This document shows positions 58,891 to 63,506 of a stretch of DNA of 64,000 nt, piece by piece. How positions within the stretch are numbered: the first letter of the stretch is position 1; the number at the start of each line of letters is the position of its first letter. The position numbers and the translations under genes were made by a program. The DNA lies in contig NZ_JAAGOB010000011.1 of NCBI RefSeq assembly GCF_010550695.1, positions 62,001 to 126,000 of the forward strand, written 5' to 3'. The notes under the pieces are model-generated. The model worked only from the letters and a program-made list of their open reading frames with translations. It searched no databases and had not been told where the DNA came from. The DNA comes from Phytoactinopolyspora alkaliphila (GTDB taxonomy: Bacteria > Actinomycetota > Actinomycetes > Jiangellales > Jiangellaceae).

Positions 58891-59820
58891 ATGAACTCGA
58901 AGAGTTTCAGCCGCCCCGGGGCTGTGGATCTGTCGTCGTTGAAAACCAACCAGCCGGCAGCGGGATCGTCGACCGCCGCCGCGCCGTCTACCGGCGGTGG
59001 CGGCTTCGTCGTGGACGTCACCGAGGCGACCTTCCAGGCGGAGGTGCTCAACCGCTCCGCCTCCGTACCGGTCGTCATCGATTTCTGGGCCACCTGGTGT
59101 GAGCCGTGCAAGCAGTTGTCGCCGATCCTCGAGCGCCTCGCCGCTGAGTACGCCGGCCGGTTCGTCCTCGCCAAGATCGACGTGGACGCCAATCAGCAGA
59201 TCGCCGCTTCCGCTCAAGTGCAGAGCATTCCCACGGTGCTCGCGGTCATCCGCGGCCAGGCGGTCCCCCTGTTCCAGGGTGCCATGCCGGAAGCCGACGT
59301 TCGCCGGGTGCTTGACGAGCTGCTCCAGGTCGCCGCGCAGAACGGCGTGACCGGACGCGCCGAGCCAGTGGCAGGAGCGCCTGCCGAGGAGACCGCCGAG
59401 GAGGAGGCCGACACCCGGTACGACGCCGCCTATGAGGCGCTCAACGCGGGCGACTTCGACGCCGCCGCGGAGGCATACCGGGCCGTCCTGAACGAGTCCC
59501 CCGCTGACGCCGACGCGAAGGCCGGTCTGGCGCGGGTGGAGCTCCTGCGGCGTACCAACGGCGTGGACGCGCAATCCGCCCGTGCCGCCGCCCAGGCCGA
59601 CCCTGCCGATATCGAGGCTCAGCTCGTCGCCGCCGACCTCGATCTCGCCACCGGCCAGGTGGACGCCGGGTTCGACCGCCTGATCGACACCATCCGGCGC
59701 TCGGCCGGGAATGACCGGGAGCGGGCCCGCACCAGACTCGTCGAGCTGTTCGAGATCATCGGGCCGGCCGATCCACGCGTGGCGCGAGCACGGGCGGCTC
59801 TGGCCAGCGCACTATTCTGA
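58891..59820 (+). CDS. Thioredoxin-TPR co-chaperone protein (CnoX/YbbN-like)
   Basis: A 309-residue protein. After a flexible Ser/Ala/Gly-rich N-terminus, a thioredoxin domain (about residues 40-150) carries the redox motif WCEPC, C70 and C73, with the cis-proline in QSIPTVLAV. The C-terminal half is tetratricopeptide-like (YDAAYEALNAGDFDAAAEAYRAVLNESPADADAKAGLARV, then a RARAALASALF end). This two-part layout matches the CnoX/YbbN co-chaperedoxins that hold folding clients under oxidative stress. Start at the ATG 58891. Its stop overlaps the convergent MarR stop by nine bases. Confidence 0.93.
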   Translation: MNSKSFSRPGAVDLSSLKTNQPAAGSSTAAAPSTGGGGFVVDVTEATFQAEVLNRSASVPVVIDFWATWCEPCKQLSPILERLAAEYAGRFVLAKIDVDANQQIAASAQVQSIPTVLAVIRGQAVPLFQGAMPEADVRRVLDELLQVAAQNGVTGRAEPVAGAPAEETAEEEADTRYDAAYEALNAGDFDAAAEAYRAVLNESPADADAKAGLARVELLRRTNGVDAQSARAAAQADPADIEAQLVAADLDLATGQVDAGFDRLIDTIRRSAGNDRERARTRLVELFEIIGPADPRVARARAALASALF

Positions 59821-60321
59821 GCGGAAGTCGCCGGCGGCCACCCGGATAGCGCGGAGGAGGTCGAAGACCGCCACCCGTTGCTCGTCGTCGAGCGCGGGCA
59901 GGCCGAACTCGGCCTCCATCAGCTCCGAGGTCACCTTCTTCACCGCGTCCCGACCCGAGTCCGTAATGCGGGCAAGCGTTCCGCGGCCGTCACGCGGGTT
60001 CGGCTCCCTCGTCACGAACCCGGCGATCTCCAGCCGCTGAATGGTGTTGGTGACGCTGGTGGGGTGGACCATGAGCCGCTCGCCGATCTTGGCCATGGGC
60101 AGCGCGCCGGTGCGGCTGAAACTGAGCAGGACAAGCGCCTCGTAGCGGGCGAAGGTCAACCCGTACGGACGGCAGATCCGGTCGTACTCGGCCAGGAGCA
60201 ACTGCTGGACCCGCATGATGGACGTCGCGGCCGCCATGGCCTCGGACGGGCCGAATCGCTCTCGCCAGATGCTGCCGGCGCGCTCGATCGGGTCGAAGCT
60301 CAGGTCCAGGGGTTCCGCCAT
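59812..60321 (-). CDS. MarR-family transcriptional regulator
   Basis: A 169-residue winged-helix regulator. The dimer helix precedes the DNA-binding region YGLTFARYEALVLLSFSRTGALPMAKIGERLMVHPTSVTNTIQRLEIAGFVTREPNPRDGRGTLARITDSG (about residues 55-125), which includes the MarR wing motif DGRG. The ATG at 60321 has GGGAGCAGC upstream and the family start lies there; the longer frame is Arg/Pro-rich. No sensing cysteine is obvious, and its target is unknown. It lies 34 bases downstream of the bPH membrane protein, likely on the same transcript. Confidence 0.92.
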   Translation of the reverse strand: MAEPLDLSFDPIERAGSIWRERFGPSEAMAAATSIMRVQQLLLAEYDRICRPYGLTFARYEALVLLSFSRTGALPMAKIGERLMVHPTSVTNTIQRLEIAGFVTREPNPRDGRGTLARITDSGRDAVKKVTSELMEAEFGLPALDDEQRVAVFDLLRAIRVAAGDFRSE

Positions 60322-60355
60322 CGCTGCTCCCTCGTGTGTCGCGGGCGCTGGCGCA

Positions 60356-61039
60356 CTAGCGCCGGCGAGCCGTGACCGGACGGGTCGGTGGGTGGCCCGG
60401 ACGGCGCGGATTGGGCTTCTTCTTCTCCGGTGGCTTCGGGCCGGCGCCACTCATCTCCCGCCGGCGCTTGTGGATCACCCTCGCGATGTCCTCCGGCCGG
60501 GGCACGTACTCGATGTCACGGATTCCCTGCTGCTGCGCCGCGTTCTCCAGCACCAGATGACCGGAGTTGAACGGTCGCAGATACCACGGGCGCATGACGG
60601 TGATGTCCAACAGCCGGACGATCTCCATCTCGGCTTCTCGCAGGGAGAACAGCCCCCAGACGCGGAAGACCCGCGAGTCGGTCACCACGAACCTGTCCCG
60701 GGCGATGTACAGCGATTTGAAGAACCCGTAACCGATCATGCCGAGCACCACGAGGATGGCGAACCACGCGACGCTGGCCGAGACGAACGGCACCCATCGG
60801 ATGCCGAGGAACAGGCCGAACGACCCGATCGCCACCGGCACGACGTACAGGATGCCGCTGTGCGTCACCTCGGTGATGATCCGCTCCCCCGACACCAGCT
60901 TCCGGGCGACCATACGGTGGCCGAACCATGATTTGGCCCGCCACCAGAAGAGCCGGACGATGCCGTCTTCGGCCACTCGATCGAGCCACCGCACGAAGCG
61001 GTCGGTGACACCGTCGAGCATGTCCCGAGGCGTGCGCAT
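60356..61039 (-). CDS. PH (bPH2/YdbT-like) domain membrane protein
   Basis: A 227-residue membrane protein. A soluble N-terminus (MRTPRDMLDGVTDRFVRWLDRVAEDG) is followed by LVSGERIITEVTHSGILYVV, two transmembrane helices (about 68-87 and 92-112), then the bacterial PH domain: YIARDRFVVTDSRVFRVWGLFSLREAEMEIVRLLDITVMRPWYLRPFNSGHLVLENAAQQQGI. The C-terminus is Lys/Arg/Pro-rich and cytosolic. bPH proteins are membrane-associated and of mostly unknown function. The ATG at 61039 follows the 50-residue small membrane gene by eight bases. Confidence 0.86.
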   Translation of the reverse strand: MRTPRDMLDGVTDRFVRWLDRVAEDGIVRLFWWRAKSWFGHRMVARKLVSGERIITEVTHSGILYVVPVAIGSFGLFLGIRWVPFVSASVAWFAILVVLGMIGYGFFKSLYIARDRFVVTDSRVFRVWGLFSLREAEMEIVRLLDITVMRPWYLRPFNSGHLVLENAAQQQGIRDIEYVPRPEDIARVIHKRRREMSGAGPKPPEKKKPNPRRPGHPPTRPVTARRR

Positions 61040-61047
61040 GGGCCCGC

Positions 61048-61200
61048 CTAGAAAAGCTCGGTGAAGAACGTGATGATGGCGTTGAACAGGTCGCCGAACC
61101 ACGACCCGATGTTGCCGAGGACGTCCGCCATCCCCTCCGGCTCGGAGAGCAGGAAGTACACCAAGAAAGCGATCAACAAGATGATCAGCGCCTTCTTCAT
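61048..61200 (-). CDS. Small single-pass membrane protein, 50 residues
   Basis: A short gene read directly from the bases. ATG at 61198-61200 is preceded by GAGGAGGGCGGCG, an excellent ribosome site, and the stop is TAG at 61048-61050. The product begins MKKALIILLIAFLVYFLLSE (a membrane helix at residues about 4-19) and continues with PEGMADVLGNIGSWFGDLF and NAIITFFTELF, an amphipathic or second membrane-associated segment. Codon third positions are strongly G/C. It sits eight bases before the bPH-domain gene start, so the two are probably translated together, perhaps as a small subunit of that membrane protein. No known family was recognised. Confidence 0.8.
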   Translation of the reverse strand: MKKALIILLIAFLVYFLLSEPEGMADVLGNIGSWFGDLFNAIITFFTELF

Positions 61201-61356
61201 CGCCGCCCTCCTCTCTTCCGGTCTGTCATGGTCACCACGTCCCGACGTGTCTTGGAGTCACAAGACCGCCATTGTGGATTTGTACCTCAAGTGCCATGCG
61301 TTTGTCCGTCCGCCACGCCGATCATGACCCCACGTCTCGAACATCTTCTACGTCGA

Positions 61357-62331
61357 TCATGACACAGCATCCACGATCTGTTCAGCAGCAGCGTACGGAT
61401 CGAGGTCTCCGAGGAGGACCTTTCCCGCCAGTGTGTCGAGCCGATCGTCGCCGTGTACGCCGGCGAATCGCCGCCGAAGTGTCGCCAGCGCGACCGCTTC
61501 GATCTCGTCCCGGATCCGTCTCGTGCGGCGGCGTTCCAGCTCGCCACTCTCCACCAGCCACGCCCGATGCTTCTCGATCGCTTCCATCATCTCCGCGATC
61601 CCCTCACCGCGCGAGGCCACGGTCGCCACGATCGGCTCCCGCCAGTCGCCAGGACCGCGCTCTGCCATCCGGGTCATCGATTTGAGGTCGCGTACCACGT
61701 GATCGGCACCGTCGTGGTCGGCCTTGTTGACGCCGAAGATGTCGCCCACCTCGAGGATTCCGGCTTTTGCGGCTTGGATGCCGTCGCCCATGCCCGGCGC
61801 GAGCAGCACGATGGTGGTGTCGGCCAGCGCGGCGACCTCGACCTCCGATTGGCCGACGCCGACCGTCTCGATGATGACGACGTCGCAGCCCGCCGCGTCC
61901 AGGACCCGGACCGCCTGCGGGGTCGCGGCGGACAGCCCGCCGAGGTGTCCTCTCGTGGCCATCGAGCGAATGTAGACCTCGGGGTCGGAGGCGTGCTCCT
62001 GCATCCGGATCCTGTCCCCCAGCAGGGCGCCCCCGGTGAACGGCGACGAGGGATCCACGGCCAGCACGCCCACGCGGTGACCCTGCCCGCGTAGCGCGGA
62101 GATGAGCGCAGAGGTGACGGTGGACTTGCCGACTCCGGGCGAGCCCGTAATGCCGAGCACGGTCGCCGCGCCGGCGTGCGACACAAGCAACGCCATGACC
62201 TCGCGTAGTCGCGGCGAGTTGTTCTCCACCAGGGTGATCAGCCTGGCCACGGCTCGTGGATCACCTTCGCGTGCCCGCCTGACCATAGATTCCAAGGAGC
62301 CGGACTCCGCCCCCGCGGTCTTCACCGTCAC
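61357..62331 (-). CDS. meaB: MeaB/ArgK-type P-loop GTPase, mutase chaperone
   Basis: A 324-residue G3E-family GTPase that protects and reloads adenosylcobalamin mutases. It shows the P-loop [10 protein letters not shown] near residues 60-69, [35 protein letters not shown], the Walker-B-like [12 protein letters not shown], and the base-recognition motif NKAD. The GTG at 62331 overlaps the thiolase stop as GTGA; the longer frame is a shadow of thiolase. It pairs functionally with the mutase large subunit gene at 57117-58829 although five genes lie between. About 155 bases separate its stop from the next gene, the 50-residue membrane gene. Confidence 0.94.
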
Positions 62332-63506
62332 GGCACCCTCAGTACCAGGGCGTCGCCCTGCCCGCCGCCGCCGCACAGCGCAGCCGCACCCAGGCCACCG
62401 CCGCGGCGGCGCAACTCAAGGGCGAGGTGCAGCACGAGCCGTGCGCCTGACATCCCGATCGGGTGCCCCAGGGCGATCGCGCCGCCGTTGACGTTCACGA
62501 TCTCCGGTGAGATGTCCAGTTCCCGGGTGGAGGCGATGCCGACGGCGGCGAACGCCTCGTTGATCTCGACCAGAGAGAGGTCGGCCGGGGTCACCCCTTC
62601 TCTCGCGCACGCCGCCAGGATGGCGGCGGCGGGCTGGCTCTGCAGGGTAGAGTCCGGACCTGCGACGACGCCGTGCGCCCCGATCGAGGCCAGTGGCTCC
62701 AGGCCGAGCTCGGCAGCCTTGGCCTCGCTCATGACCACCACGGCGCATGCGCCGTCGGAGAGCTGCGACGACGAGCCGGCCGTGATGGTGCCTTCGGCGT
62801 GGAACGCGGGACGCAGCCGGGCCAGGGAGTCGGCCGTGGTGTCGGCGCGGATGCCCTCGTCGTGCATGAACTCCACGGGGTCGCCTTTGCGTTGCGGTAT
62901 CTCCACAGGGAAAGCCTCGTCGGCGAACCGGCCGTCTTTCCACGCCTGCGCCGCTCGCTGGTGCGACCGGGCCGCGAACTCGTCTTGCTCTTCCCTGGTC
63001 AGCTTGATTCCGGCGGTGTTACGGGCTTCCGTCAGCGCGCCCATGGCCTGGTCGGTGAAGACGTCCCACAAGCCGTCGACGGAGACGTGGTCCAGCACGG
63101 CGGCGTCACCGTACTTGAACCCCTGTCGGGCGCCGGGCAGCAGGTGCGGCGCACCGCTCATCGACTCCATACCGCCGGCGACGATGATGTCGAACTCCCC
63201 CGCCCGGACCAGCTGGTCGGCGAGAGCGATCGCGTCGATGCCGGACAAGCAGACCTTGTTCACGTTCAGCGCGGGCACGGTCATCGGCAGCCCGGCGTTG
63301 ACGGCGGCCTGCCGGGCCGGCATCTGCCCGCAGCCCGCGGTGAGCACCTGCCCCATGATCACGTACTCGACCGCATCCGGCTCCACACCGGACCTGGCCA
63401 AGGCGTTCTTGATGGCCATTCCGCCCAGGTCTGTCGCCGAGAACCCGGAGAGAGAACCGAGGAGCTTACCGATGGGCGTCCGCGCGCCCCCTACGATGAC
63501 CGCCAT
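62328..63506 (-). CDS. Acetyl-CoA C-acetyltransferase (thiolase)
   Basis: A 392-residue condensing enzyme. The acyl-accepting cysteine is in [18 protein letters not shown] (C86). The second motif is in [24 protein letters not shown] and the third is [12 protein letters not shown], with the second catalytic cysteine. These match acetyl-CoA acetyltransferases that form or cleave acetoacetyl-CoA. It lies 42 bases after the epimerase start gene's end and overlaps meaB by GTGA, so it is part of the mce-thiolase-meaB operon. The length is normal for the family. Confidence 0.95.

Follow-up and report, generated by a model that had tools for sequence, protein, structure and literature searches.

A 50-codon reading frame that lies just ahead of a bPH-domain membrane protein gene raises two questions: is it a gene, and, if so, does its product act with the protein encoded next to it? 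Within the 64,000-nucleotide stretch of Phytoactinopolyspora alkaliphila DNA analyzed here (the window), the frame runs on the minus strand from 61200 to 61048 (50 codons plus TAG) and encodes MKKALIILLIAFLVYFLLSEPEGMADVLGNIGSWFGDLFNAIITFFTELF. A Shine-Dalgarno sequence, AGGAGG (61207..61212, minus strand), stands six bases 5' of its ATG, and 8 bp separate its TAG from the bPH gene, whose ATG is at 61039. The KD17 hydropathy maximum is 2.59, from residue 4, indicating one strong membrane helix, and the G+C fractions at codon positions 1, 2 and 3 are 0.44, 0.28 and 0.96; the hydrophobic stretch, together with this positional pattern in a G+C-rich genome, fits a coding membrane protein. The initial annotation had described a strong ribosome site, a clear membrane helix, good codon bias and a distance of eight bases to the bPH gene, and each of these descriptions agrees with the values above. 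GGAGG is present in all six aligned copies of the small gene, and many other Jiangellaceae relatives carry AAAGGATGATG-like ribosome sites; the strong site is not universal, and among the family loci inspected no clear ribosome site was found at one (L028).

Selection on the frame was measured with 21 Jiangellaceae copies of 50 codons, a set that omits L029, which at 51 residues is the most diverged of the 22 family copies. Over 210 pairs the median pN/pS is 0.38 and the largest 0.67; in the five other reading frames of the same copies the medians lie between 0.60 and 2.72, and in two of the five frames 21/21 copies contain stops. Variable columns number 30, 21 and 44 of 49 at codon positions 1, 2 and 3, respectively. 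The small ORF is under purifying selection at the protein level, and its frame is conserved, which the initial annotation had named beforehand as a test of its proposal.

The gene is present in all 22 Jiangellaceae genomes searched, its own included, and the weakest match has 29% identity (E 5.5e-4). The relatives that bear a name are P. halophila, P. limicola, P. halotolerans and an actinomycete MAG. Of 393 class genomes, 182 are matched at E≤0.05 by a profile built from Jiangellaceae only (A1), a count that includes some chance matches because E-values are per genome; at E≤3e-5 at least 132 of the 393 are matched (among 150 listed matches). A wider profile matches in 35 of 296 genomes of the phylum at E≤0.01, of which 20 lie outside the class, with a best E-value of 6.6e-15. 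Profile A3 includes members of several families of the class, so that its scores for those families are circular; the A1 scores and the out-of-class matches are not. Members and relatives are about 50-60 residues long, and in the 56 members aligned P21 and F45 are invariant, F12 occurs in 55 and A25 in 54. A chance ORF, for which the small size and nothing else speaks, is refuted by conservation and selection, since the frame recurs in every family genome searched and is matched in many genomes of the class, with a conserved pairing described below; we consider it vanishingly improbable. The 50-residue ORF, proposed earlier as a real gene, is a true gene maintained by evolution in many Actinomycetota.

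The downstream partner (60356..61039, minus strand) is a YdbS-like bPH_2 membrane protein of 227 aa, which passes the gathering cut-off of PF03703 (29.9 bits, cut-off 22). Its predicted model (pLDDT 86.8) begins with a strand, continues with helices 62-81 and 88-114, and is completed by the rest of a PH-like barrel, so that two membrane-length helices are inserted after the first strand. The top Foldseek matches are PH folds, among them two bacterial ones (3dcx, E 2.8e-3; 3hsa, E 4.9e-3) with VIA Z values of 9.4 and 9.2, respectively (best row, 10.9); no PDB match reached E 0.001 for this model. Bacillus subtilis YdbS is described as a protein with a single PHb2 domain and a pair of membrane helices (PMC8657885), and Xu and colleagues predicted PHb2 domains to be intracellular (PMC2817789). 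As modeled, the partner follows this YdbS plan, with a PH-like fold for its one PHb2 domain and two membrane helices. Contigs C28 and C30 of the P. alkaliphila genome (L114 and L117) hold two ORF pairs of ~170 and 484-519 aa with bPH_2 matches in a YdbS-YdbT-like arrangement.

To describe how regularly the two genes occur together, we pooled the listed matches from five small-protein and bPH profile searches (150, 140, 47, 37 and 124 matches). This set is not a random sample, as two of the searches took genomes chosen for earlier matches. The matches listed mark 210 small loci, spread over 173 genomes, and 248 bPH loci, spread over 178. Both genes are represented in 159 genomes, of which 146 contribute one pair each, giving a lower bound of at least 146 pairs. 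Searched on its own, the bPH protein matches in 132 of 296 genomes of the class. In every listed pair, out-of-class genomes included, the two genes share a strand and the small gene comes first; among the pooled matches listed, no small match less than 1.5 kb from a bPH match was arranged in any other way. Thirteen of the 20 out-of-class genomes with a small match (E≤0.01) were searched for bPH, and the pair is present in 12; one of the 13 (G595) has a stop inside its small-gene match. The remaining seven, whose small matches are weak (E 0.0018-0.0073), were outside the bPH search. In none of the loci examined were the small and bPH frames fused into one ORF. The association with the bPH gene is confirmed, and a lasting link between the two genes is strongly supported both in the class and beyond it. 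From this adjacency, we consider that the two proteins very probably work together.

The spacing within the pair is tight. Among the 22 family loci it is 7-12 bp in the 20 with a downstream start in the bPH frame; this figure leaves out L028 and L029, at which the starts picked are not in the bPH frame. In 22 further loci it ranges from -4 to 55 bp when the bPH start is set at the earliest start codon that opens a long ORF. Such spacing would suit a translated leader ORF whose sole role is translational coupling or regulation of the bPH gene; however, the protein-level selection, the conservation of F12, P21, A25 and F45, the relatives outside the class and the small copies that have no adjacent bPH match argue against this role, which we regard as very unlikely.

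The genes around the pair vary. In the window, the upstream neighbor is meaB (61357..62376, minus strand; PF03308, with TIGR00750 above cut-off), a methylmalonyl-CoA mutase-associated GTPase gene 156 bp away, and the downstream neighbor encodes a MarR-type regulator (59812..60324, minus strand; PF01047) whose exact start is uncertain. Elsewhere the flanking or upstream genes include meaB (L096), upp (L099) and an HD-domain dGTPase-like gene with transketolase (L111). The pair is thus more constant than its surroundings. Also in favor of the pair with this particular PH-domain protein, no small membrane ORF was found directly upstream of the three other bPH_2 loci of the P. alkaliphila genome.

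Six aligned copies of the small gene share a conserved upstream element, CGGCGTGGC...GTACAA (61280..61320, minus strand), which is possibly the small gene's own promoter or leader. Its pattern has one match in the window versus 0.01 expected, although it was derived from the same alignment and the count is not independent. No sigma-70 promoter or terminator pattern was found near the small gene. A direct repeat, GTCATGATCGNCGT, occurs in the interval that separates meaB from the small gene, at 61315-61328 and 61350-61363 (minus strand), 35 bp apart, and has two further exact copies in the genome; it is possibly an operator. TCATGATCG also lies upstream of the small gene in four of five aligned relatives.

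Neither gene is confined to the pair. Among the matches listed, 64 of the 210 small loci have no adjacent bPH match; 30 of them are extra copies in pair-bearing genomes, and 34 are in 27 genomes that have no listed pair. Among these 64 are tandem copies in family f17, single copies in family f19 and the seven weak out-of-class matches. In five of six f19 genomes the bPH profile yields only weak matches, located in long ORFs, and in the sixth it yields none. Conversely, 102 of the 248 bPH loci have no listed small gene alongside; many of these are second bPH genes or weak matches. The lone small copies reflect either other partners for some of them or a role of the small protein on its own. The suggestion that the product may be a small subunit stands in part: conserved adjacency favors it, whereas the 64 loci that have no adjacent bPH match speak against a strict subunit role.

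The unpaired copies have settings of their own. In the f17 genomes (L074, L076-L082) tandem small genes have no bPH gene alongside, and several lie near hisF-like or glutathione-peroxidase-like genes (named by eye). Among the f19 genomes with a single small gene (L086-L088, bPH matches weak or none), one (L086) has it directly before a Dabb-domain gene (PF07876).

The small-protein model, of moderate confidence (pLDDT 79.9, pTM 0.46), contains helices at 2-19, 21-30 and 32-49. Segment 32-49 is amphipathic, with a moment of 0.46 (shuffled sequences average 0.17). Of the 56 members, 54 carry a positive net charge ahead of the first helix; behind it the net charge is negative in 44 and positive in 4. 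This distribution suggests that the first helix inserts the protein N-in. A signal sequence offers a different account of the same residues, in which the N-terminal helix would serve as a Sec signal and be cut after Ala25 to release a 25-residue amphipathic peptide. Residue 25 is Ala in 54 of the 56 members and Gly in the other two, a permissive -3/-1 pair occurs after residue 25 in 38 and after 24 or 25 in 47, and GMA|D in the window protein fits a signal peptidase site. On the other hand, nine of the 56 members lack a permissive pair at both positions even by this lenient test, residue 23 is variable and in some members charged or polar, and a helix turn accounts equally for the invariant Pro and the Ala; we regard secretion as unlikely.

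We instead propose a conserved two-protein unit, a reading that we consider somewhat more probable than otherwise. The first helix of the small protein would insert N-in, with positive charge before it and negative charge after it; the chain would turn at the invariant Pro21, and the C-terminal amphipathic helix with its invariant Phe would rest on the outer face of the membrane. The bPH member would contribute two transmembrane helices and one cytoplasmic PHb2 domain. The single span of the 50-60-residue protein may pack against the helical hairpin of the YdbS-like protein and may set its assembly, stability or activity. A role as a membrane subunit of the YdbS-like protein, or as its resident peptide client, is plausible, and the small-subunit role is our leading reading.

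Family searches give the small protein no established name. Pfam yields nothing for the window protein at E≤10, and its sole NCBIfam match is TcpD_dom (NF040686), at 20.6 bits. This match (E 3.2e-4) is the best of the 56 members, 23 of which match at E≤0.1; the score is under the curated cut-off of 24 for the TcpD family. Pfam matches of the members are scattered over 11 families, each hit by 1-3 of the 56 (best E 0.0035), and NCBIfam matches other than TcpD are at E 0.0049 or worse, with one or two members each. PHROG 8999 is matched by the window protein at E 7.4e-5 and by only two of the 56 members. Among viral contigs, no relative was found with the window protein alone as query. In the plasmid collection, two queries returned one Nonomuraea record and a third returned nothing. 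Routine annotation may have overlooked the small gene, as the initial annotation proposed; the one annotated actinobacterial record consulted, NZ_LT559118.1 (L123), is named as a plasmid but is 11.85 Mb long and has only 10 annotated features in the collection. Two sets of matches were set aside: a Psychroflexus match (L008), judged by eye to be chance as it lies inside a longer transporter gene, and weak second matches in the P. alkaliphila genome, inside open reading frames 721 and 333 codons long.

What emerges is a small-protein family with a clear partner and not a new kind of system: a family that occurs in many Actinomycetota, has no name in the Pfam and NCBIfam searches and now has a defined partner. 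In the portions of the literature consulted we recognized no paper on the small-bPH pair, which does not establish its absence from print. The same portions offer few functions for bacterial PH membrane proteins, for which a fixed small partner would be a direct handle.

Several known systems resemble this pair in part. TcpD (NF040686) shares a weak profile similarity with the small protein; however, TcpD belongs to conjugation systems (PMC12857230), whereas the genes directly around the small gene are of other kinds. In the window the small gene has meaB, bPH and MarR as its closest neighbors, and none of the 10 neighbor or partner proteins typed from six relative loci belongs to a conjugation family. 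AcrZ, KdpF and CydX are small membrane subunits; they are single-span proteins a few tens of residues long that work with a larger membrane protein, as is proposed here for the small protein, although the partner here differs in kind from theirs. B. subtilis YdbS (PHb2/bPH_2, COG3402) has the same plan of helices and domain as the window partner. In B. subtilis, YdbS precedes YdbT, which has three PHb2 domains, and both genes are listed as sigma-W-dependent (PMC3498285); in the window, by contrast, a 50-residue protein neighbors the bPH protein and the MarR gene follows.

A parallel to a short peptide beside a PH protein comes from leaderless bacteriocin clusters, namely enterocin DD14 with DdE and DdF and the aureocin A53-like clusters of Actinomycetota, which likewise set an amphipathic peptide of ~50 residues by a PH protein. 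The YdbS- and YdbT-like PH membrane proteins DdE and DdF are required to export EntDD14, and deletion of their genes stops export (PMC8657885); PH-domain proteins also adjoin ~50-residue leaderless peptides in Actinomycetota (PMC11580447). By analogy, the small protein could be no subunit but the cargo or ligand of its bPH neighbor, which would handle it as a non-toxic peptide resident in the membrane, much as DdE and DdF handle enterocin DD14; its size and amphipathic helix match those of leaderless peptides. Those peptides, however, have a mean charge of +4.63 (PMC11580447), whereas the net charge of the window protein is -3 (median 0 and range -6 to 5 in 68 family sequences). The small gene is also present in all 22 genomes of its own family, and no transporter gene was seen among the ORFs read by eye from 57 to 64 kb; we give this account a minority chance. 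We do not class the window protein as a leaderless bacteriocin, since those peptides are strongly cationic and Trp-rich and it, with its single Trp, is neither. "Short membrane peptide plus PH protein" may nevertheless be one theme. In its broadest form, to which we assign only a small chance, YdbS-like bPH proteins would be general handlers of short amphipathic membrane peptides, the small protein would be a resident non-toxic client, and leaderless-bacteriocin export could have been recruited from this function.
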